A stretch of 64,000 nucleotides of DNA from Couchioplanes caeruleus (GTDB lineage: Bacteria; Actinomycetota; Actinomycetes; Mycobacteriales; Micromonosporaceae): the NCBI RefSeq assembly GCF_023499255.1, contig NZ_CP092183.1, positions 6,754,501-6,818,500 of the forward strand, in the 5' to 3' direction. The notes under the pieces were generated by a model that did no database searches, was not told the DNA's origin, and saw only the letters and a program-made list of their open reading frames with translations. Shown piece by piece: positions 5,322 to 30,188 of the stretch (position 1 is the first letter of the stretch; each line of letters begins with the position of its first letter). The position numbers were made by a program, and so were the translations under genes.

Positions 5322-6464
5322 TCAACGATGTGTGTCTGAAGAACGACACGGAAGGGCCTCCGGGGCAGCGCACCGCAGCCGCACCGTGACCACAAGGCCA
5401 CCGGGGGTGCCGGGAGCCAGGTCGAGCGTTCCGTAGTGGGCGCGGACGATGCTGCGCACGATGGCCAGACCGAGACCGGCCCCGGCGTGCTCGTCGGTGC
5501 GTACGCGCTCCGCCCCGCGCTGAAAGGGTTCGGTGAGCGTCGGCACCACGGCCGGGGCGAGCGGGCGGCCCGTGTTCTCCACCCGCAGCACGCTCGTGTC
5601 GCCGTACGCCCCGGTGTGCACGTGCACGCTGCCGCCGCTCGGGAGGTTGTGGACGACGGCGTTCTGGACGAGGTTCATGACCATGCGCAGCAGCAGCTCG
5701 GCGGAGCCGCTCACCGGAGCCGTACCCCCGGAGACGTCCAGCGTGATCCGGCGCTGTTCGGCGAGGGGCAGCAGCGTCTCGGCGGCCTCCTCGGCGAGCA
5801 GCGAAAGGTCCACGCGCTCGCGGGCGAAGTCCCCGCGGTCGCCTCGGCTGAGCACGAGCAGCGCCTCGGTGAGGTCGATCGCGCGGGTGTTCATGGCGTA
5901 CAGGCGCTCGATCAGTTCGTCGCGGTCCAGCGTGGGATCCCTGCGGGCGACCTCGAGGAGCGTGCGCGAGACGGCCAGCGGCGTACGCAGCTCGTGCGAC
6001 GCGTTCGCGGCGAACCTCTGCTGCTCGGCGACGTGCGCCTCGAGCCGTTCGAGCATCGAGTCGAACGCGTCGGAGAGCTCACGGAACTCGTCCCCCCGGC
6101 CCGCCAGCCGGATCCGGTGGGACAGCGACCCGTCCGCGGCCAGCCGGGTGGCCCGGGTGATGCGGCTCAGCGGCGCGAGCATCCGGCCGGCCAGAACCCA
6201 TCCCCCGGCCAGGCCGAACAGGAGCAGGAAGGCCAGCACCACGGCCGCCCTCGGGGCGAAGGCGCGCAGCAGGTCCGAACGGTCGGGCACGAACCTGAGG
6301 GGCACGGCGAACTCGGGCGGCCGCGGGTTCTCGACCACCTCGGGTACGTAGCGCAGCAGGAAAACCCACACCGTGGCCAGGATCAGGCCCCCGGCCAGCA
6401 TGACGAACCCGGCGTAGCTCAGCGTCAGCTTGAGCCGGGCGCTGAGACCGGGCGCCCTAGTCAC
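5322..6464 (-). CDS. Sensor histidine kinase (OmpR-partner type)
   Basis: 380 residues with two membrane helices (about residues 12-38 and 74-92) around a short extracytoplasmic loop, HAMP (RITRATRLAADG), H-box ASHELRTPLA, N-box LVQNAVVHN and G2 box GAGLGLAIV. It is the cognate kinase of the preceding response regulator: its GTG start at 6464 lies inside the regulator's last codons (8-bp overlap). Last gene of the hydrolase-VanZ-regulator-kinase operon, so its signal is plausibly a cell-envelope condition. The short sensor loop suggests intramembrane or membrane-proximal sensing. Confidence 0.9.
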   Translation of the reverse strand: MTRAPGLSARLKLTLSYAGFVMLAGGLILATVWVFLLRYVPEVVENPRPPEFAVPLRFVPDRSDLLRAFAPRAAVVLAFLLLFGLAGGWVLAGRMLAPLSRITRATRLAADGSLSHRIRLAGRGDEFRELSDAFDSMLERLEAHVAEQQRFAANASHELRTPLAVSRTLLEVARRDPTLDRDELIERLYAMNTRAIDLTEALLVLSRGDRGDFARERVDLSLLAEEAAETLLPLAEQRRITLDVSGGTAPVSGSAELLLRMVMNLVQNAVVHNLPSGGSVHVHTGAYGDTSVLRVENTGRPLAPAVVPTLTEPFQRGAERVRTDEHAGAGLGLAIVRSIVRAHYGTLDLAPGTPGGLVVTVRLRCAAPEALPCRSSDTHR

Positions 6465-7128
6465 CGTCCGCCCCCTCGATGCGGTAGCCGACGCCGGGCA
6501 CCGTGGCGATGATCCATGGTTCGCCGAGCCGTTTGCGCAGCGCGGAGACGGTGATGCGGACCGCGTTGGTGAACGGGTTGGCGTTCTCGTCCCACGCCCG
6601 TTCGAGCAGCTCCTCGGCGCTCACGACGCCACCCTCGGCCGCCGCGAGCACCTCCAGCACGGCGAACTGCTTGCGGGTGAGCGGAACGTACCGTCCGTCG
6701 CGGAAGACCTGCCGGCGGAAGGGATCGAGGCGCAGACCCGCGATCTCGCGGACCGGGGGCCGGGCGTACGCGCGCCGGCGGTCGAGCGCCCGCAGCCGCA
6801 GGACGAGCTCCCGCAGCTCGAACGGCTTGGTGAGGTAGTCGTCGGCGCCCAGCTCGAACCCGGACGCCTTGTCGTCGATGCGGTCGGCGGCGGTGAGCAT
6901 GAGGATCGGGATGCCGCTGCCGGACGCGACGATGCGCCGCGCCACCTCGTCCCCGGAGGGACCCGGTATGTCCCGGTCGAGGATGGCGAGGTCGTAGGAG
7001 TTGACGCTGAGCAGGTCCAGCGCCGTCCCGCCGTCCCCGGCGACGTCGGCGGCGATCGCCTCCAGCCGCAGCCCGTCCCGCACGGCCTCGGCCAGGTACG
7101 GCTCGTCCTCCACGATCAGGACCCGCAC
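6457..7128 (-). CDS. Response regulator, OmpR/PhoB family
   Basis: 223 residues: receiver domain with acidic pair EDE near residue 7, phosphoacceptor in LAILDRDIPG, Thr in LMLTAAD and Lys in YLTKPF, then an OmpR winged helix ending TVPGVGYRIE. GTG start at 7128 is 1 nt from the stop of the VanZ-like gene (spacing too short for an independent promoter) and the kinase gene overlaps its 3' end. It likely binds tandem direct repeats upstream of the operon, but none is obvious by eye. Confidence 0.92.
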   Translation of the reverse strand: MRVLIVEDEPYLAEAVRDGLRLEAIAADVAGDGGTALDLLSVNSYDLAILDRDIPGPSGDEVARRIVASGSGIPILMLTAADRIDDKASGFELGADDYLTKPFELRELVLRLRALDRRRAYARPPVREIAGLRLDPFRRQVFRDGRYVPLTRKQFAVLEVLAAAEGGVVSAEELLERAWDENANPFTNAVRITVSALRKRLGEPWIIATVPGVGYRIEGADGD

Positions 7129-7129
7129 C

Positions 7130-7780
7130 TCAGCCCGCCACCCGCTCGGTGCAGCGCCCGGCCTCCGCGCCGCTCCGCCACCACCTGCGCGACGCCAGCC
7201 CGGCCAGCACGGCGCCGGCGGCGTTGACCAGGACGTCGTCCACCGAGGACACCCGGTCGAGCCGCAGCACGTACTGCGCGACCTCGACCAGGGCCGAGCA
7301 GCCCGCCCCGAGCGCCAGGACCCGCGGCACGGACGCCAGCACGGCGAACCGCATCGGGGCGAAAAGGCCCAGCGCCGCGAAGATCAGCAGGTTGCCGGCG
7401 ATGCCGAGCGGCCCCATCGTGGCGAGATCCCGCAACGGCACCAGGCTCACCCGGCCGGGCACGATCCCGGCGCCCGGCCCCGGCATCATGGTGATCCACA
7501 CGAACGGCACCGTCCCGTACACCATGCCCACCTCCGCCAGCGACAGCCGCCACGCCGGCCCGGCCCCGGCGGCACGCCGCCACCGGGCCAGGGCCCACGC
7601 CACCAGGCCGGCGCCCGGCAGGCCGGCCAGCATCATGAGCAGCACACCGTTCTCGGTGTCGTAACAGCCGTGCCACCGCCCGGCCAGGCACTGCGGCGCG
7701 GCCATCATGAGCGGCCGCCGCAGAACGTACGCGATCCCCGCGATGCAGACCACCACCAGAACCGCCCGCACCCACCTCAC
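7130..7780 (-). CDS. VanZ-like membrane protein
   Basis: 216 residues with five predicted membrane segments. The C-terminal block with LVEVAQYVLRLDRVSSVDDV and LVNAAGAVLAG is the VanZ signature (E-x-x-Q, D-x-x-D-V, N-x-x-G). VanZ of enterococci gives low-level teicoplanin resistance; actinobacterial relatives are widespread and mostly uncharacterised. Its ATG overlaps the stop of the serine hydrolase gene (ATGA) and the response regulator follows after 1 nt, so it belongs to one operon with a two-component system. Confidence 0.85.
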   Translation of the reverse strand: MRWVRAVLVVVCIAGIAYVLRRPLMMAAPQCLAGRWHGCYDTENGVLLMMLAGLPGAGLVAWALARWRRAAGAGPAWRLSLAEVGMVYGTVPFVWITMMPGPGAGIVPGRVSLVPLRDLATMGPLGIAGNLLIFAALGLFAPMRFAVLASVPRVLALGAGCSALVEVAQYVLRLDRVSSVDDVLVNAAGAVLAGLASRRWWRSGAEAGRCTERVAG

Positions 7781-8985
7781 CCGCCGGCCCCGCCCTCGGG
7801 CACGACCCCCGTGACGGCCGCCGTCTCCCGGGCGATCATCTCCTCCAGCGGCGCGCCGTCACAGTTACCGAGAATGACACCGACCCAGCCGGTATCCGGG
7901 TAGATGCTCCAATTCGCGCCGACCCCGGGATTCCCCCCGGCCCGCTGAAAAGCCCACTGACCGCCGACGATGTCGATCGCGACCCCGTACGCCCCGAACG
8001 ACGCCGGACCGTGCGGCAGCTTGGCGCCGGTCAGCACATCGGCCCACGGCCGGTCGAGCAGGGTGCCGTCGCGCAACGCGTACGCGAACCGGACAAGGTC
8101 CGGAGCGGTGGCGAAACCCCCGTCGCCGGGGGCATCGATGAAGGCCCGCGCCGGATTCCTGCCGGCCAGATACGGGTACGCGCTCCCCGCGTCCAAGTGC
8201 CGCACGGCATCCACCACGCTCCCACCGGCCACCTCCATGTACGGGTGCGCGACGTGCCCGTCGGTGAGCCACCGAGGCCGGGTGAAGAAGCCGGAGCCGG
8301 TCATCCCGCACCGCCGGAAGACGTGCTGCTCGACGTAGTCCCAGTACGTCGTACCGGCCACGGCCTCCACGACCAGGGCGGGAAGAAGAACCTCGGGTTC
8401 GGCGTGGGTGGTGCTGGGAAGCCCCGGAACATCCACCAGAGTCGACTGTTCAGCGCGGTGAACGTAATACGCATGCACCTCTGCCCTGCTCCGGAAGACC
8501 CGTTCGACGTCCTCCTCCGGGCCGGCCAGCCCGGAGGCGCCGGAGAGCAGATGATGAACACTCACCCGCTCGGCGATCTCCTTGTCCAGCCCCCGCAGAT
8601 ACTTGCCCACCGGATCGGACAACTGCAGCTTGCCCCGCTGCGCCAGCTGAAGAATGGCCACGGCGTGGAACGGCTTCCCGGCGGAACTGAGGCTGAACGC
8701 TGTGCCCTCGTGGTTACGGATCCCGCGCTCCCGGTCGGCCATGCCGTAACTGCGGGACAGGACGGTCCGGCCCCGGTGCGACAGCAGAACCACACCGGAG
8801 AACCTGCCGTCGGCGGCGAGCTTCGCCACGTACCGGTCGTACGCCCCGCCGGGCCGGGCATCGGGTGGGATCGAGGAACGCGCACCGGCAGCGGGAGCGC
8901 CCACCAGCGGCACGCCGGCCGCAGCCGCCCCGCTCCAGGCGAGCACCCGGCGGCGTGCTATGCCCCGTACGGAATCTAAAGCCAT
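7777..8985 (-). CDS. Exported serine hydrolase, beta-lactamase class C/PBP4* fold, altered active site
   Basis: 402 residues. Residues 1-36 form a probable Tat signal (RRRVLAWSG then an alanine-rich core ending PAAGA). The S-x-x-K motif is present (SSAGK near residue 102), with the usual downstream VHHLLSGASGL block. However, where family members have Y-S-N before LL..VVE, this protein reads THA (PGLPSTTHAEPEVLL), and the H-x-G-G element reads RAGGNPG. The general-base Tyr and the oxyanion-side His therefore seem replaced. It may be a sensor, a binding protein or an esterase with changed chemistry. First gene of the VanZ/two-component operon. Confidence 0.85.
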   Translation of the reverse strand: MALDSVRGIARRRVLAWSGAAAAGVPLVGAPAAGARSSIPPDARPGGAYDRYVAKLAADGRFSGVVLLSHRGRTVLSRSYGMADRERGIRNHEGTAFSLSSAGKPFHAVAILQLAQRGKLQLSDPVGKYLRGLDKEIAERVSVHHLLSGASGLAGPEEDVERVFRSRAEVHAYYVHRAEQSTLVDVPGLPSTTHAEPEVLLPALVVEAVAGTTYWDYVEQHVFRRCGMTGSGFFTRPRWLTDGHVAHPYMEVAGGSVVDAVRHLDAGSAYPYLAGRNPARAFIDAPGDGGFATAPDLVRFAYALRDGTLLDRPWADVLTGAKLPHGPASFGAYGVAIDIVGGQWAFQRAGGNPGVGANWSIYPDTGWVGVILGNCDGAPLEEMIARETAAVTGVVPEGGAGG

Positions 8986-9131
8986 CGTCTCGGCCCCTCC
9001 CAGTCGACAGACCCCAACTGAAACCGAACCGATGTTGCGACGACGTATGCGTTTTCCAATACACGCGCAATACCCACCAACCGGCCTGCGCCCCGGCCGG
9101 TAGGGTCGTTGCCGATTGTCGGCGGAACCCG

Positions 9132-9605
9132 TCAGCGGGCCTGCCGCTCCACGTCCTTGGCCATCGCCCGCAGGGTCGCCCCGAAGCCGACACGACCGGC
9201 AAGCGACAACACCGGCCCCACCATCCGCGTAACGCGATGAGGAGTCACCGTCACGTCCTCGTGCCAGTCCACCCGGCTCCGGCCACCCGCCAGCGGCACC
9301 ACCGAGAAGCCGGCCCGGCCCAGCACCACCCTCCCCCGCTTGACCACCTCGCAGCGCCCGGGGCCATCGTCGGGGGCGTTCCCGCCCGGCGGCTGCCAGA
9401 GCTCCACCGTCATCGGGTCGTCGAACGCGAGCGGCCCGATTCCGGTCCGGGCGACGAAGCCGGCGCCCACGCCGTCGGGCCGGGGTGTCGTCACCCGTAC
9501 GCGGGTGAGCGGCGCCCAGTCGCCGTGCCGGGGCCAGTCGACCATCGTGGCCCAGACCGTGGTGGCGGGCGCAGCCACCTGTTGTGGGACGGTGAACCGG
9601 GCCAT
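9132..9605 (-). CDS. SRPBCC family protein
   Basis: 157 residues. The start MARFTVPQQVAAP leads into a Polyketide_cyc2-like SRPBCC fold (TTVWATMVDWPRHGDWAPL, then GRSRVDWHEDV and the C-terminal helix GATLRAMAKDVERQA). ATG at 9605 is preferred to a TTG at 9614 because ggag lies 5 nt upstream of it. These proteins bind hydrophobic ligands or act as cyclases or toxin-antitoxin-like partners; nothing here decides. It ends 146 bp before the hydrolase operon and starts 30 bp after the end of the permease gene, so it might be cotranscribed with the sugar ABC genes. Confidence 0.8.
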   Translation of the reverse strand: MARFTVPQQVAAPATTVWATMVDWPRHGDWAPLTRVRVTTPRPDGVGAGFVARTGIGPLAFDDPMTVELWQPPGGNAPDDGPGRCEVVKRGRVVLGRAGFSVVPLAGGRSRVDWHEDVTVTPHRVTRMVGPVLSLAGRVGFGATLRAMAKDVERQAR

Positions 9606-9636
9606 GTGCTCCAAGATAGCCCGGTGAAACCTATGG

Positions 9637-11655
9637 TCAGCCCTTCACCGCCCCCGCCGTCAGCCCTTCCGTGAGGAACCGCTGCCCGAAGGCGTACATG
9701 ATCACCACCGGGATGCTCACCAGCAACGATGCCGCCGCCAGCTGCCCCTGCGGCACCACGTCCCCGGCGATCATCGACTGCATGCCGACCGGGAGCGTCT
9801 TGTACTCGTCCTTGGTGATGAACACGAACGCGAAGAGGAACTCGTTCCAGGCGTTGGTCAGGGTGAACAGCGCGACCGCCAGCACTCCCGGCTTGGCCAG
9901 CGGCAGCACCACCCGCCCGAACGCCTGGACGCGCGAGCAGCCGTCGACCAGCGCGGCCTCCTCGAGCTCGGCCGGGATGGAGGAGAAATATCCCGCCAGC
10001 AGCCAGGTCGCGAACGGCAGCGTGAAGGTCGGGTACGTCAGCACCAGCGACCACAGCGAGTCGGTGAGCCGTACGCCGATGAGCAGCTGGTAGAGCGGGA
10101 TGAACAAGAGCGCGCCGGGCATCACGTACGTCAGCAGCACCGTGACGGTGAAGCCCTGCGCGCCGCGGAAGCGCAGGCGGGCCAGCGCATAGCCGGCCAG
10201 GACCGCGCAGATGAGGGCCACCACCGTCGACGCGCCGGAGACCAGCAGGGTGTTGGCGTACCAGCGGGCGAACGGCTGGTTGGTGAACAGCGCGGTGAAC
10301 TGCTCGAGGGTCCACGGCGTCGGCCACAGGTCGTGGGTGCGCGTGACGACCTGGCCCTCGGACTTGAAGGCCGTGACGGCGATCCAGTACAGCGGGGCCA
10401 GCACGAAGCCGAGCAGCCCCGCCATCGCCACCCAGGATCCCGTACGCGACACCACGGTCGACGTACGGCGACCGCCGCGGGCCTGGAGCGTCGAGACCAC
10501 CCGGCCCACCATGGCCGCGATCAGCAGGATCACGCCGAGGACGACCACCGCCTTCCAGAAGATCTGCGGCGACGCCCAGGCCAGCAGGCCGGTGAACACC
10601 GCCGCGAGGATCCAGGGCAGCGCCGTGCGGATGGTGCCGGGCCGGCCGTCGCTGCGGCGCCCCCGGAGCGGCCCGGTGCCGGAGTCGCGGCGCAGCAACC
10701 GGACCAGGAAGAAGACCAGCGCGCCGATGACCGGCAGCATGACGAGCGTGACCGCCGCTCCCGCGCCGTACTGCAGCTGCAAAATCGCTTTCGAGTACGC
10801 GACCAGCACGTACGGTGCGGTCACGTTGCCCGGACCGCCCTGGGTGAGCAGCCAGATGAGGTCGAAGTTGTTGAACGTCCAGATCGACGACAGGGTCACC
10901 GTGACGGTCATGACGTGCCGCAGTCCGGGCAGCGTCACGTGGGCGAAACGCTGCCAGGCGGAGGCGCCGTCGATGGTCGCCGCCTCGTACTGGTCCGCCG
11001 GGATGGCCTTCAGGCCCGCGAGGAAGCAGACGGTGAAGAACGGCACGCCCTTCCACACGTTGACCAGGATCACGGACGGCATCGCCAGCGACGGGTCGGA
11101 CAGCCAGCCCGCCGGCCAGCTGTCGACGAGGTGCGCGTCGGCCAGCAGCGGGCCGATCCCCGAGCTGGTGAGCAGGGTGTTGACGCTGCCGAAGATCGGG
11201 TCGAGCAACGTACGCCAGCTGAACGCCGTCACCACCGTCGGCACCACCCACGGCACCAGCAGCAGCCCGGTGAGCACGGCGCGGCCGCGGCGCCGGTGAT
11301 GCAGCAGCAGGGCCGCGGCGAGACCCAGGACAACCTTGAAGATCTCGGCGTACGCGGTGAAGACGAAGGAGTTCACGACGCCGGCGTGGAACTGCTCGTC
11401 GCCGGCGAGGGCGAGGTAGTTGTCCAGGCCGACGAAGACGTCGTCCTGCCCGTGCCGTTCGGTGGTGCTGGTGATCATCGACCGGGCGATGGGCAGGAGC
11501 ACGAGCACGCCGACCAGGACGGCCGTCGGCGCCAGGAACAGCGCTGCGAGGCGCCAGTCCCGGCCCAGCCACCGCTGGGTCCTGGTGAGCGAGCCGGGCC
11601 CCGGCGGCGAGGGTGCCCGCCTGACCGGGGCCGGCGCTTGGCGCACCGTGCTCAC
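9637..11655 (-). CDS. Sugar ABC transporter permease, MalF and MalG domains fused in one polypeptide
   Basis: 672 residues without interruption. The first half is a MalF-type permease with EAA loop EAATIDGASAWQRFAHVTLP at about residue 224; the second is a MalG-type permease with EEAALVDGCSRVQAFGRVVL at about residue 564. The halves are joined by an Arg-rich cytoplasmic stretch and two extra hydrophobic segments (ILAAVFTGLLAWAS; AVVVLGVILLIAAMVG) before the second permease begins. These extra helices would keep the topology right. The GTG start overlaps the stop of the binding-protein gene (GTGA). No ATPase is encoded nearby; MsiK-type shared ATPases normally serve such actinobacterial importers. 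Confidence 0.88.
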   Translation of the reverse strand: MSTVRQAPAPVRRAPSPPGPGSLTRTQRWLGRDWRLAALFLAPTAVLVGVLVLLPIARSMITSTTERHGQDDVFVGLDNYLALAGDEQFHAGVVNSFVFTAYAEIFKVVLGLAAALLLHHRRRGRAVLTGLLLVPWVVPTVVTAFSWRTLLDPIFGSVNTLLTSSGIGPLLADAHLVDSWPAGWLSDPSLAMPSVILVNVWKGVPFFTVCFLAGLKAIPADQYEAATIDGASAWQRFAHVTLPGLRHVMTVTVTLSSIWTFNNFDLIWLLTQGGPGNVTAPYVLVAYSKAILQLQYGAGAAVTLVMLPVIGALVFFLVRLLRRDSGTGPLRGRRSDGRPGTIRTALPWILAAVFTGLLAWASPQIFWKAVVVLGVILLIAAMVGRVVSTLQARGGRRTSTVVSRTGSWVAMAGLLGFVLAPLYWIAVTAFKSEGQVVTRTHDLWPTPWTLEQFTALFTNQPFARWYANTLLVSGASTVVALICAVLAGYALARLRFRGAQGFTVTVLLTYVMPGALLFIPLYQLLIGVRLTDSLWSLVLTYPTFTLPFATWLLAGYFSSIPAELEEAALVDGCSRVQAFGRVVLPLAKPGVLAVALFTLTNAWNEFLFAFVFITKDEYKTLPVGMQSMIAGDVVPQGQLAAASLLVSIPVVIMYAFGQRFLTEGLTAGAVKG

Positions 11656-25747: not shown

Positions 25748-27010
25748 TCAAAGACCGACCAGAGCGCCCAGTGAGGCGAGTACCGCTCCTGCCGTGCGCC
25801 ATCCGCCCGCGAGCGCCCCTTGGATGGAGGGACTGTCGCGGTGGTCTCCGGCGACGAACAGGCCGTCCCCCAGTTCGACCGGCTTCCGGAGCCGGGCCTG
25901 TGGGACGGGGGCTGCCGGTAGGGCGTGCGGGATGGGTACGACCTGCAGCAGCTCCCACTGATCCGTGGGCACGCCGTAGATCCGTGCCAGTTCCACCCGC
26001 ATGACCTGCTCCGACGCTCCCGAGGGCGCCGCGACTCCCACGGTTGAGGCTGCGATCAGCGATCGGCCTGCCGGGGCGTATTCGGGGGCTGCGTTGGACA
26101 TGACGATGGTGTTGGCCACGATTTCGCGGCGGTCGCCGTCCAGCAGGAGGGTGGGTTCGTCGATGGGGGCTTGCGGGGCGCCGAAGTAGTACGTGGTCAG
26201 CCCTCGCATGTCCGGGCGGGGCAGGGACGGGAGGAGCTCGGATGCCGTGACCGGGTCGGTGGCCACGACGACCGCCCGGCAGCGGATCTCGCCGCCGTCG
26301 GTGATGACGCGGCCCGGGGAGACCGCGACCGTGCGGGCGTTGACCAGGAGTTGCGGGTACGGCAGGGGGCCCGCGACCGCGGCCGGGAGCATGGCCATGC
26401 CCTGCGCGGGGACGCCGATGCGGCCGCGGGCGAAGGAGCGGAGCACCATCGCGAGGACGTGGCTGGACGTGTCGAGGGAGCGGTCGGCGAAGACGCCGGA
26501 GAGGAACGGCCGCAGGACCTCTTCGATGATGCGGTGGGACAGGCCCGCTTTGCGCAGCGCCTCCTGGGTGGTCAGCTCCGGGGCGTCGAGGAGCCGGGCC
26601 GGCGGGTACGTCGCGCAGCGGGTCGCCAGCGCCGCGAACTTGAGGCGGTCGGCGAGCGTGCCGACCCCGCTGTTGAGGGTTTTCGGGGCGGCCATCGGGT
26701 CGCGGAGCGGGTTTTCCAGGCGGTGCAGGCGTCCGCCGCGGCGGACCAGGACGCCGGGCGTGAAGTAACGCATGTCGAGGGCGTCCAGGTCGACCAGGGC
26801 CGGCACCCTCGGGTACGCGGTGTTGAGGACCTGGAAGCCGCGGTCGAGCCGCCAGCCGTCCACGACGTCCGTGGCGACCCGGCCGCCGAGCCGGTCGGCG
26901 GCCTCGACGAGCAGCCAGTCGACGCCGGCGCGGTCCAGCCGGCGGGCAGCGGCGAGCCCCGCGAGGCCGCCGCCGACGATGACGACGTCCACCTCTGGCG
27001 GCTGCGACAC
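25748..27010 (-). CDS. FAD-dependent amine-oxidase-like oxidoreductase
   Basis: 420 residues. The N-terminal dinucleotide-binding motif VDVVIVGGGLAGLAAARRL plus the second FAD motif LVEAADRLGGRVAT define a flavin amine oxidase/phytoene-desaturase-like protein. The C-terminal GDGLFVAGDHRDSPSIQGAL is the third FAD-contact motif with the G-D at the ribityl chain. The GTG start at 27010 has gagg 6 nt upstream; the frame stays open further 5' but encodes no motif there. Substrate not predictable; protoporphyrinogen-oxidase-like members are close in pattern. Diverges from the glycosyltransferase gene. Confidence 0.85.
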   Translation of the reverse strand: MSQPPEVDVVIVGGGLAGLAAARRLDRAGVDWLLVEAADRLGGRVATDVVDGWRLDRGFQVLNTAYPRVPALVDLDALDMRYFTPGVLVRRGGRLHRLENPLRDPMAAPKTLNSGVGTLADRLKFAALATRCATYPPARLLDAPELTTQEALRKAGLSHRIIEEVLRPFLSGVFADRSLDTSSHVLAMVLRSFARGRIGVPAQGMAMLPAAVAGPLPYPQLLVNARTVAVSPGRVITDGGEIRCRAVVVATDPVTASELLPSLPRPDMRGLTTYYFGAPQAPIDEPTLLLDGDRREIVANTIVMSNAAPEYAPAGRSLIAASTVGVAAPSGASEQVMRVELARIYGVPTDQWELLQVVPIPHALPAAPVPQARLRKPVELGDGLFVAGDHRDSPSIQGALAGGWRTAGAVLASLGALVGL

Positions 27011-27070
27011 GGGCACCTCACAAGGGGACGAACAACGCAGGACCCAGCCTAACGGCGGACGCAGCCCGCG

Positions 27071-27180
27071 GCAGGCGAAAGAACAGGCCAGGCGAAAGAA
27101 CCAGGCAGGCGAAACAACGCGCCACGCCAGGGCGAAAGCGCAAGAGACGAACAAGGCAGCCGCAAGAACGGGTCAGGCGA
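27071..27180. repeat. Loose short repeats of caggcgaaa
   Basis: At least four close variants of caggcgaaa, spaced 13 to 60 bp, in the 215-bp divergent intergenic region between the flavoprotein and the glycosyltransferase. The region is poorer in GC than its flanks. No function assigned. Confidence 0.4.
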
Positions 27181-27225: not shown

Positions 27226-29127
27226 ATGGCGGGGTTCATGAGCGAGCAGGACACGGCTGCGCCGGTGGAAAGGCGCGTGCCCGGCCGGCTGTACGGGCGT
27301 ACAGCCACGGAGATCACCGGCCCGGTGCGGACACCCGCCGACCGGGTGCGGTACCGGCCGGTGCTGAGCCGCCGGCAGCACCGGTTCATGGTGGGCGTCG
27401 CCGGGCTGCACATCACGTTCGCGCTGGCCCTGGTCGGTTTCCTGGTGCTGCCCGGCAACCTGCCGGCGCTGCGGGCCGGGGACCGGGCCCGGGACCTCGC
27501 CATGCTGGTGGGCCTTTTCCTCATGGTCCTGCTGCAGGTGATCGTGGCGCTGCGGACCTGGGTGCTGGCGTACTTCGCCGCCCGGGCGCGCGACCCCGAG
27601 CCGATGCCGGCCCCGGCCGGCCTGCGGGTGGCCCTGCTCACCACGATCGTGCCCGGCAAGGAGCCGGTGGAGCTGGTGCTGACCACGCTGCGCGCGATGA
27701 AACGGGTACGCCACGACGGCCCGGTCGACGTGTGGCTGCTCGACGAGGGCGACGACGAGGAGGTGCGGCGCCGCTGTGAGGAGATCGGCGTACGCCATTT
27801 CAGCCGTAAGGGCCGCCCCGAGTGGAACCAGCCCAGCGGCGAGTTCAAGGCGCGGACGAAGCACGGCAACCACAACGCGTGGCGGGCCGCGTACGAGAAC
27901 GACTATGACGTGGTCGCCCAGATGGACCCGGACCACATCCCGTATCCGAACTTCCTCGAGCGCAGCCTCGGCTACTTCGCCGACCCGGACACCGCGTTCG
28001 TGGTCGCGCCGCAGGTCTACGCCAACCTCACCGAGTCGTTCGTCGCGCGCGGCGCGGCCGAGCTGGCGTACATCTTCCACGGGATCATGCAGCGCGGCGG
28101 GAACGGGCACGGCGCGCCGCTGCTGATCGGCACGAATCACCTGTACCGGCCGGTGGCCTTTCAGCAGATCGGCGGCTATCAGGACTGCATCATCGAGGAC
28201 CATCTGACCTCGATGGTGATCTACAGCGCCCGGAACCCGGCGACGGGCAACCACTGGAACGGCGTGTACACCCCGGACGTCCTGGCTGTGGGCGAGGGGC
28301 CGGCGACCTACTCCGACTTCTTCAGCCAGCAGAAGCGCTGGGCGTACGGAATCTGGGAGATTGCCCGCCGGCACTCCCCGGCGCTGATGCGCAGCCTGCC
28401 GCGGCGCAGCCAGCGGCTGTCGTTCTTCGCGCTGCAGTCGCACTATCCGACCACGGCCCTGTCCTGGGTGATCGGCGTCGCGCTCAGCGCGCTCTACCTG
28501 GTCGGCGGCGTCACGATCAGCCGCCTCCCGGCGCTGGTCTGGGGTGTGCTGTTCGTCGGCAACATCGTCGCCGGCCTGGCGTTCTTCCGCTTCACCCAGC
28601 GCTTCAACCTGGTCGAGCACGAACGGCGGTCGTTCGGCCTGGCCGGCATGGCCCTCGAGCTGGTCACCGCTCCGGTCTACGTCGCCGCCGCGGCGGCTCA
28701 GCTCGCCGGCCGCCCGCTCGCCTACGTGGTCACCCCGAAGGGCGCTGCGGCGACCGGCGACACGTGGCGCACGTTCCGCGCCCACCTCGGCTGGGCGGCG
28801 GTCGCTGCCGCATGCCTCGCCTGTGGCGTCGTCCTGGACCACCCCTTCTGGACCCTCTATCTCTGGGCCACGCTCACGCTCGTGATCTCCCTCGCGCCCC
28901 CGATCCACATGTACGCCCGCGGCGCCGCCCGCAGGTCTCGCCAGGTCGTCCCGCAGCGCCGGATCGGCCGGAAGCTGGTACGGGCGGGCCTGATCAGCGT
29001 GCAGCAGCTCGACGAACTGCTCGATCTGCAGGCGACGTCCGAGCAGGCGTGGCAGCGCCTGGGCGACCTCGCCGTGCAGCACGGGTACGTGAACGAGAAG
29101 CAGCTGTCCGACGTGCGTGGACGCTAG
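27226..29127 (+). CDS. Cellulose-synthase-like GT2 glycosyltransferase with C-terminal MshEN-type module
   Basis: 633 residues. Two N-terminal helices (about 60-78 and 90-110), then a GT2 catalytic domain: WLLDEGDDEE at 171, QMDPDHIP at 231, IIEDHLTS at 322 and QQKRWAYG at 367, giving the D, D-x-D, E-D and Q-x-x-R-W elements of processive beta-glycan synthases. Four more helices follow. Residues 579-633 fit the MshEN consensus: RIGRKLVRAGLISVQQLDEL with a Gln at the 24th position, a linker, then RLGDLAVQHGYVNEKQL. MshEN domains bind c-di-GMP, whereas BcsA uses PilZ. The alternative ATG at 27238 would remove four residues. Convergent with and overlapping the LacI gene by 4 bp. Confidence 0.85.
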   Translation: MAGFMSEQDTAAPVERRVPGRLYGRTATEITGPVRTPADRVRYRPVLSRRQHRFMVGVAGLHITFALALVGFLVLPGNLPALRAGDRARDLAMLVGLFLMVLLQVIVALRTWVLAYFAARARDPEPMPAPAGLRVALLTTIVPGKEPVELVLTTLRAMKRVRHDGPVDVWLLDEGDDEEVRRRCEEIGVRHFSRKGRPEWNQPSGEFKARTKHGNHNAWRAAYENDYDVVAQMDPDHIPYPNFLERSLGYFADPDTAFVVAPQVYANLTESFVARGAAELAYIFHGIMQRGGNGHGAPLLIGTNHLYRPVAFQQIGGYQDCIIEDHLTSMVIYSARNPATGNHWNGVYTPDVLAVGEGPATYSDFFSQQKRWAYGIWEIARRHSPALMRSLPRRSQRLSFFALQSHYPTTALSWVIGVALSALYLVGGVTISRLPALVWGVLFVGNIVAGLAFFRFTQRFNLVEHERRSFGLAGMALELVTAPVYVAAAAAQLAGRPLAYVVTPKGAAATGDTWRTFRAHLGWAAVAAACLACGVVLDHPFWTLYLWATLTLVISLAPPIHMYARGAARRSRQVVPQRRIGRKLVRAGLISVQQLDELLDLQATSEQAWQRLGDLAVQHGYVNEKQLSDVRGR

Positions 29128-30188
29128 GGGGTGTCCCGCTGGGGCGCGGCCGTGCTCGATCGGTGGATCAGGACGGTGGGTACGAGTTCGGTGCCCGGCG
29201 TGCCGCGCTCGCCGCGGATCTGGTCCAGCAGGCCGTGTACGCAGCGCCGGCCGACCTCGGCGAAGTCCTGGTGCACGGTGGTCAGCGGCGGCAGGTACGA
29301 CCCCGCGTCGGGGATGTCGTCGAAGCCCACGACGCTGACCTGCTCGGGCACCCGGCGGCCGCGCTCGTGCAGGGCCCGCAGCACGCCCAGCGCCATCTGG
29401 TCGTTGGCCACGAAAATGGCGGTGCAGGCGGGGTCGGCGGCGAGCCGCAGGCCGGCCCGGTATCCGGAGGTGGCGGACCAGTCGCCGCGCTCAATGGGTG
29501 GCAGGGGGCGGCCGGCGTCCTCGATGACGGCCCGCCAGGCCTGGGCCCGGCGCTCGGCGGAGAACGACTCGGCCGGGCCGCCGACGTGCCACACCGTACG
29601 GTGGCCGAGCCCGAGCAGGTGCCGCACCGCCTGCCGGGCGCCGTCGGCCTGGTCGGTGTCGACCACCGGGTAGCGGTCGCCGGCGTCGGAGTCGACCACC
29701 ACGACCGGCATGCCGGGCGGCAGGGTGAGGTCGGTGGCGTCGAGCAGGTGCACTTCCATGATCACGATGACGCCGTCGACGGCGAGCTCGCCGAGGCGGG
29801 TGAACGCGCCCAGCACGCCGTCCTGGGTGGGTGCGGCCACCGGGATGAGCGTGATGGCGTACCCCTCGAGCGCGGCCTGCGTGGCGATGGCCTCGACCGT
29901 GCGGCTGTTGCCGGTGGTGGCGAGGGTGAAGAGGATGACGCCGATGGTGCGGAATTCCCCCAGCTTGAGCGCCCGGGCCGCGCTGTTGGGCCGGTATCCG
30001 AGCTCTCGCATGGCGTCCAGCACGACGCGGCGGGTGGACTCGACGACGCCGGGATGGCCGGTGGACACGCGGGACACGGTCTGCGACGACACCCCGGCGA
30101 GGCGGGCCACGTCGGCCATCGAGACCCCGCGTGAGCGGCGGTTGATCGGCTTCCAGTCCGCCCCTGGTTTCCTTGACGATCCCGGCAC
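29124..30188 (-). CDS. LacI-family transcriptional regulator
   Basis: 354 residues. HTH: MADVARLAGVSSQTVSRVST, hinge YRPNSAARALKLG, then a periplasmic-binding-like effector domain with FVANDQMALGVLRAL and VGFDDIPDAGSYLPP. Starts at GTG 30188, which puts about 23 residues before the HTH; an ATG at 30119 would begin inside the first helix. It diverges from the oligosaccharide import operon, with two perfect 12-bp palindromes between them. Predicted to repress that operon and possibly itself until a sugar derived from the GH5/GH42 substrate binds. Confidence 0.92.
   Translation of the reverse strand: MPGSSRKPGADWKPINRRSRGVSMADVARLAGVSSQTVSRVSTGHPGVVESTRRVVLDAMRELGYRPNSAARALKLGEFRTIGVILFTLATTGNSRTVEAIATQAALEGYAITLIPVAAPTQDGVLGAFTRLGELAVDGVIVIMEVHLLDATDLTLPPGMPVVVVDSDAGDRYPVVDTDQADGARQAVRHLLGLGHRTVWHVGGPAESFSAERRAQAWRAVIEDAGRPLPPIERGDWSATSGYRAGLRLAADPACTAIFVANDQMALGVLRALHERGRRVPEQVSVVGFDDIPDAGSYLPPLTTVHQDFAEVGRRCVHGLLDQIRGERGTPGTELVPTVLIHRSSTAAPQRDTP

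Follow-up and report, generated by a model that had tools for sequence, protein, structure and literature searches.

The window analysed here, 64,000 nucleotides of contig NZ_CP092183.1 (positions 6,754,501 to 6,818,500) from the soil actinomycete Couchioplanes caeruleus, contains a gene for a processive polysaccharide synthase of glycosyltransferase family 2 (GT2) whose C-terminal tail resembles the cyclic di-GMP (c-di-GMP) binding module MshEN_N. From this combination we consider it probable that the product is an exopolysaccharide synthase under c-di-GMP control. The gene and its product have the following features:

27226..29127, plus strand: processive GT2 polysaccharide synthase of 633 amino acids, ending in an MshEN_N-like module (open reading frame and hidden Markov model (HMM) matches)
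27370..27582, plus strand: two N-terminal membrane helices, residues ~49-73 and 87-119 (structural model; centres of the hydropathy peaks 62-73 and 97-110)
27925..27933, plus strand: DXD, Asp234-Pro-Asp236, followed by His237 (alignment; invariant across a 90-row alignment)
28192..28200, plus strand: TED-equivalent, Ile323-Glu-Asp325 (IED; alignment)
28327..28341, plus strand: QxxRW, Gln368-Gln-Lys-Arg-Trp372 (alignment)
28723..28743, plus strand: gating loop YVVTPKG, residues 500-506, resembling FxVTxK of BcsA and CslA (alignments)
28960..29031, plus strand: MshEN motif I, residues 579-602, matching at all 11 defined positions (NF053729 and motif scoring)
29032..29055, plus strand: 8-residue spacer separating the half-motifs, canonically 5 (homologue comparison)
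29056..29124, plus strand: MshEN motif II, residues 611-633, matching at 7 of 11 positions, with Arg in place of Leu58 and the last Gln missing (motif scoring)

A BcsA-like synthase with an MshEN_N-like tail

The synthase matches Glyco_trans_2_3 in the Pfam scan (expectation value (E) 5.4e-12) and TIGR03030 (E 6.9e-21), the latter with 73.9 bits, far under the equivalog cut-off of 699.1. A start at 27238 is also possible, as the database copy (P0001) has 629 residues and is four codons shorter. The AlphaFold2 model of the whole protein has a mean predicted local distance difference test (pLDDT) of 86.7, and the closest chain in the Protein Data Bank is BcsA bound to c-di-GMP and uridine diphosphate; VIA-align also supports the synthase fold but, by its own note, barely tests the tail. 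DXD, QxxRW, gating loop and fold are thus shared with BcsA, from which the protein differs in having no PilZ match in the Pfam scan, IED for TED, an MshEN_N-like tail and a score under the TIGR03030 cut-off. The nearest well-studied relative of the glycosyltransferase (GT) part is CslA of Streptomyces, with which it has the gating loop in common, and Streptomyces loci are 40-45% identical. CslA has TED, with glxA and a glycoside hydrolase (GH) family 6 gene downstream, as at one Streptomyces locus (L025) in which the relative's gene precedes GlxA and GH6 genes, and it has no MshEN, whereas glxA does not adjoin the window synthase. PilZ gave no Pfam match in one Streptomyces CslA-type copy scanned; partial PilZ elements have been described in CslA (PMC11022532). 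Throughout the synthase subfamily and its MshEN-less sisters, IED is followed by His. The replacement of TED by IED may mean that the sugar or the acceptor is other than in CslA. As we read the model, the module comes after six membrane helices and is therefore predicted to sit in the cytosol; the last of the six (542-569) lies under the hydropathy threshold used.

The tail was scored against the half-motif RLGxx(L/V/I)(L/V/I)xxG(L/V/I)(L/V/I)xxxxLxxxLxxQ (PMC5013675), with I or V permitted at the Leu of RLG; the full score of motif I includes an Ile at this position 2. The motif pair reaches 18 of 22, the best values being 14 among 20,000 shuffled tails and 13 among 300 shuffled whole proteins. 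The curated model NF053729, an MshE-related c-di-GMP motif, matches residues 579-630 with E 2.4e-10 and 40.0 bits (cut-off 38), scoring 46.1 bits on the tail alone and 44.9 in the genome search. In the AlphaFold2 model, helices lie at the expected places (579-586, 592-604, 612-618 and 624-632), with pLDDT block means of 89, 85, 64, 87 and 91 over residues 581-630 and of 51 over residues 571-580. These results bear out the first-pass annotation, which had reported an MshEN pattern at residues 579-633 of a GT2 synthase, and add to it the spacer of 8, the Leu58 to Arg change and the silence of PF05157, the Pfam MshEN model. Tandem 24-residue half-motifs and, as predicted from the model, four helices are common to the tail and MshEN_N of MshE, PilB and PilF; the tail differs in having a spacer of 8 rather than 5, in the loss of the second Gln, in the lack of MshEN_C and in being carried by a synthase, not an ATPase.

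A helical, Leu-rich tail might come to resemble MshEN by chance. When the bare tail was compared with solved structures, designed tetratricopeptide repeat proteins ranked first by summed repeats, with no single stretch passing, followed by PilB (4e-4) and MshE (1.4e-3), and at E 0.1 Pfam reports weak matches to FumaraseC_C (15 of 16 orthologous tails, best 8.4e-6) and to DUF4388 (13 of the 16, best 0.0014). On the other side, NF053729 matches all 16 tails at E 0.01 (query tail 2.8e-12), no shuffle attains 18, and a profile of the 16 tails, searched against solved chains, puts MshE (5htl, 4.5e-8), PilB (5zfr, 8.4e-8) and PilF (6f8l, 8.5e-8) at the top. Chance similarity is thereby refuted as far as sequence allows, and we give it hardly any credence.

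The expectation that an MshEN HMM would match was borne out with NF053729 and not with PF05157, which matches neither the query protein nor the 16 orthologous tails. In Escherichia coli NfrB, PF05157 spans residues 542-628 and the c-di-GMP motif occupies a separate stretch, 489-540. What this Pfam model describes is therefore the adjacent subdomain, MshEN_C, rather than the binding motif, and it was discarded as a test of the module. The query protein lacks MshEN_C. In MshE this subdomain is dispensable, since MshEN_N in isolation has a slightly higher affinity for c-di-GMP (0.35 uM) than the complete domain (PMC5013675).

Conservation and alteration of the module

The homologue search scored 8000 candidates, of which 2854 passed the limit of E 1e-3; the 120 top-ranking ones, close kin only, were examined, and the nearest named relative is Nucisporomicrobium flavum (synthase identity 95-96%). 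Both halves of the tail occur in 119 of the 120, the exception (P0119) ending too early, and the counts below refer to these 119 listed homologues, with residue positions in Vibrio MshE numbering. In the first half, R9 is retained in 117, L10 (as L/I/V) in 119, G11 in 118, G18 in 111, L25 and L29 in 118 each and Q32 in 119; in the second, R38 is retained in 110, L39 (L/I/V) in 118, G40 and G47 in 119 each and L54 (L/I/V) in 117. In the 90-row alignment, the majority fraction averages 0.85 over the GT region (125-515), 0.39 over the linker (562-576) and 0.69 over the tail (579-630). Across eight ortholog pairs, the ratio of nonsynonymous to synonymous substitution rates (dN/dS) is 0.05-0.18 for the GT, 0.09-0.43 for the tail and 0.32-1.52 for the linker (seven computable pairs). 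The tail is therefore under constraint, weaker than that on the GT.

Several observations weigh against c-di-GMP control. The spacer is 8 residues long in 115 homologues, 11 in 3 and 7 in 1, never the canonical 5. Position 58 (L/I/V/M) is kept in 97 and lost in 22, the query among them with its Arg, and the query protein stops one residue short of position 61. Q61 is present in none of the 119, 111 of which have some residue there, so that the second half ending before its last Gln, as the first-pass annotation had described it, is real and a trait of the family. In binding MshEN domains, the two glutamines form four hydrogen bonds (PMC12002112), and in Thermus thermophilus PilF GSPII-A binding returned in constructs in which Arg39 and the two glutamines had all been restored, although the lone effect of the second glutamine was not separated from the other changes (PMC12002112). 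For motif I, dN/dS is 1.16 between the window and one ortholog (L005), on few changes (5 synonymous, 14 nonsynonymous); it is 0.04-0.54 in the remaining seven pairs. Around the gene, no partner is common to all 20 stretches compared, no GGDEF gene lies within the window by the coordinates of the genome matches, and no c-di-GMP riboswitch was found in the window, where only two tRNAs appear at gathering thresholds.

Part of these data would suit a degenerate MshEN that has lost c-di-GMP binding and whose helix bundle has a structural or protein-docking role, for instance in holding a partner or dimerising the synthase. The loss of the second Gln in all 119 homologues and the changed spacer favour such a bundle, Arg at position 58 would bring a charge to the Gua2 packing site, and XpsE and PilF GSPII-A are MshEN folds without binding (PMC5013675, PMC12002112). 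We nevertheless hold it to be unlikely, if a serious contender: the tail is at its most conserved at, among others, the ligand-contact residues (Q32 and G40 in all 119, R9 in 117), the linker ahead of it drifts (0.39 versus 0.69) and NfrB binds despite one degenerate half. For the c-di-GMP-responsive module that we favour, three changes (loss of the second Gln, a longer spacer and the Arg at position 58) point to binding weaker than in canonical MshEN.

Comparison with NfrB and origin of the fusion

A synthase of this general kind has a precedent. NfrB of E. coli was demonstrated in 2021 to be a GT2-MshEN synthase working c-di-GMP-dependently (PMC8669469, PMC8669472), and its piece 414-745 binds c-di-GMP with a dissociation constant of 1.0 uM (PMC8669469); MshEN-glycosyltransferase fusions were mentioned already in 2016 (PMC5013675). 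The proposal that an exopolysaccharide synthase uses a different receptor domain is supported as regards the GT2 fold with its MshEN_N-like tail; the idea itself is known from NfrB. The query protein could then be nothing more than the actinomycete orthologue of NfrB: the domain order is identical, with a GT2 membrane synthase and the c-di-GMP motif placed after the membrane helices, the tail weakly matches NfrB-type equivalog models at the motif, and an NfrB homologue is noted in the Gram-positive Eggerthella lenta (PMC8669469). We regard this as very improbable and reject orthology, because the match to the NfrB equivalog model NF008411 is confined to the tail at 10.3 bits (cut-off 1170; NfrB itself 1332.7) and hhalign likewise aligns the family profile to NfrB over the tail only (57 columns, E 1.9e-5); with BcsA, by contrast, the alignment runs through the GT and the gating loop, 370 columns in all (E 4.2e-12). 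By NCBI models the two are of different GT families, PRK14716 types for NfrB and CelA as the best for the query. Moreover, NfrB is without FxVTxK at the aligned place, where the query has its BcsA/CslA-type gating loop, and has an MshEN_C (the PF05157 stretch) for which the query gives no match. Its motif I is degenerate (R9, G18 and Q32 lost) and its motif II complete, the reverse of the query family, and its spacer is 4 by hand count, compared with 8 here. Since the GT of the query is not NfrB-like and carries a BcsA/CslA-type gating loop, the two fusions look independent in origin. This points to two or more separate fusions of MshEN to GT2 synthases, and to a module of which one half or the other may degenerate.

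To place the fusion within actinomycetes, 89 loci (L005-L093) were surveyed, several genomes being present twice and the window itself included. A C-terminal first half-motif is present in 22 of the 89 by a position filter, which missed L012 and L074 (77% identity); these two end early, with motif I present and the second half missing, and judging by length and scores they are the same gene from two collections. Relatives at 35-57% identity, including Streptomyces, Frankia, Acidimicrobiales and Saccharibacteria loci, are without the motif. A tree of the GT core was built from 60 hand-picked rows (14 listed homologues, 41 loci, the query, the host paralogue and three E. coli proteins) and 392 columns, and it is interpreted within the actinomycete family alone; rooting with E. 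coli PgaC, NfrB and BcsA was dropped owing to saturated end branches (length 10). In this tree, 28 MshEN rows from Actinoplanes and relatives, Geodermatophilaceae and Kineococcus form one group together with the MshEN-less L016 (Modestobacter sp. DSM 44400, 63% identity), with support of 100/99. L016 falls inside the group by its GT core, its own placement being unsure (80/64). The tree fits one MshEN gain in the actinomycete subfamily followed by one loss, and the module was probably gained once in a subfamily whose relatives lack it. The IED variant also occurs in MshEN-less sister rows and would therefore predate the tail.

Six-frame regular expressions found no MshEN remnant near the synthase ends of L016, L018, L019, L029, L036, L075 and L096 in the stretches scanned. 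In ten MshEN-less relatives, neither PilZ nor any non-GT2-type domain was found (Pfam, limit E 0.01). The module had been described as standing in place of PilZ; PilZ is indeed without a match in the protein and in the host genome, but replacement is doubtful because by Pfam these ten relatives carry neither domain. It is more likely that a synthase lacking any recognised sensor domain acquired MshEN than that MshEN displaced PilZ. In the samples taken, a relative occurs at 1e-60 in 57 of 394 genomes of the class, and among the rows listed none but that of the window extends to residue 633, the next longest stopping at 603; within the genus, a relative of at least 68% identity is present in 11 of 67 genomes (one of them, G423, cut short); and in the family sample, 11 of 250 genomes have one at 1e-180, all within this genus.

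We found no account of MshEN on CslA/BcsA-type synthases of actinomycetes in open-access PubMed Central, the supplementary fusion table of PMC5013675 being excluded. The idea of the fusion is thus partly known, and what seems new here is a separately arisen, altered actinomycete form.

Gene neighbourhood, host signalling and a proposed mechanism

The synthase gene is flanked in the window by two genes on the opposite strand:

25748-27154, minus strand: amine oxidase gene, divergent from the synthase
29124-30188, minus strand: LacI-family gene, convergent, its 3' end overlapping the synthase stop codon

Sugar ATP-binding cassette genes and a GH42 beta-galactosidase gene follow past the LacI gene. 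Relatives of the LacI gene are found at L017 (same place) and at L005 and L006 (at least 6 kb away), and a relative of the amine oxidase gene at L017 only. A constant neighbour exists in Geodermatophilaceae only, a divergent GH26-like gene (1e-9 to 2.8e-15) adjoining the synthase:

L009:6760-7866, minus strand: GH26-like gene
L014:6751-7857, minus strand: GH26-like gene
L015:4234-5577, minus strand: GH26-like gene
L020:6527-7762, minus strand: GH26-like gene

GH26 enzymes cut beta-mannans and some beta-glucans. In those four loci this neighbour hints at a beta-mannan- or beta-glucan-like polymer; alternatively, its product might trim the polymer, much as that of bcsZ does with cellulose. No GH26-like gene adjoins the window synthase.

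The host genome (8.42 Mb, one contig) gives 62 GGDEF matches and not a single PilZ match in the genome search. NF053729 matches twice, in the query synthase and, under the cut-off, in a CheA (L003:997-3160; C1 near 715598). This CheA has an MshEN-like pair at residues 169-222, N-terminal to the kinase core, scoring 31.4 bits in the protein scan and 35.1 in the genome search (cut-off 38), and CheA-MshEN fusions have been mentioned (PMC5013675). The host PilB has PF05157 and no NF053729 match. A second host synthase, with TED and no MshEN, lies in L096 and is followed by GlxA (PF21110, 1.9e-24) and GH6 (4.9e-68) genes; this stretch (6266-11108) is a cslA-glxA-cslZ-like cluster.

In the mechanism that we propose for c-di-GMP control, the membrane-embedded BcsA/CslA-type GT2 would polymerise a putative beta-glycan from cytosolic nucleotide sugar and extrude it via its own channel, gated by the YVVTPKG loop. 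The four-helix module, predicted to lie in the cytoplasm behind the last membrane helix, would bind c-di-GMP between the half-motifs, using the complete first half together with Arg-Leu-Gly, Gly and Leu of the second. Binding would relieve autoinhibition, as PilZ does in BcsA and as is thought for MshEN in NfrB; we infer activation rather than inhibition. A more speculative and rather unlikely version is a new working form of MshEN, built of one complete half with a lengthened spacer and lacking the second Gln clamp, that holds c-di-GMP asymmetrically, either as a low-affinity sensor adjusted to local c-di-GMP or with one c-di-GMP shared between two synthases. Were an asymmetric module shared in this way, the signal would assemble the enzyme as well as open it.

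The CslA-GlxA complex is fully active only with c-di-GMP, for which the binding site was not identified (PMC11022532). The window synthase is a relative of CslA with a recognisable candidate c-di-GMP sensor, in a host with 62 GGDEF and no PilZ matches, and its MshEN-less relatives are natural controls for the role of the module. The finding bears on the action of c-di-GMP in actinomycete exopolysaccharide synthesis.
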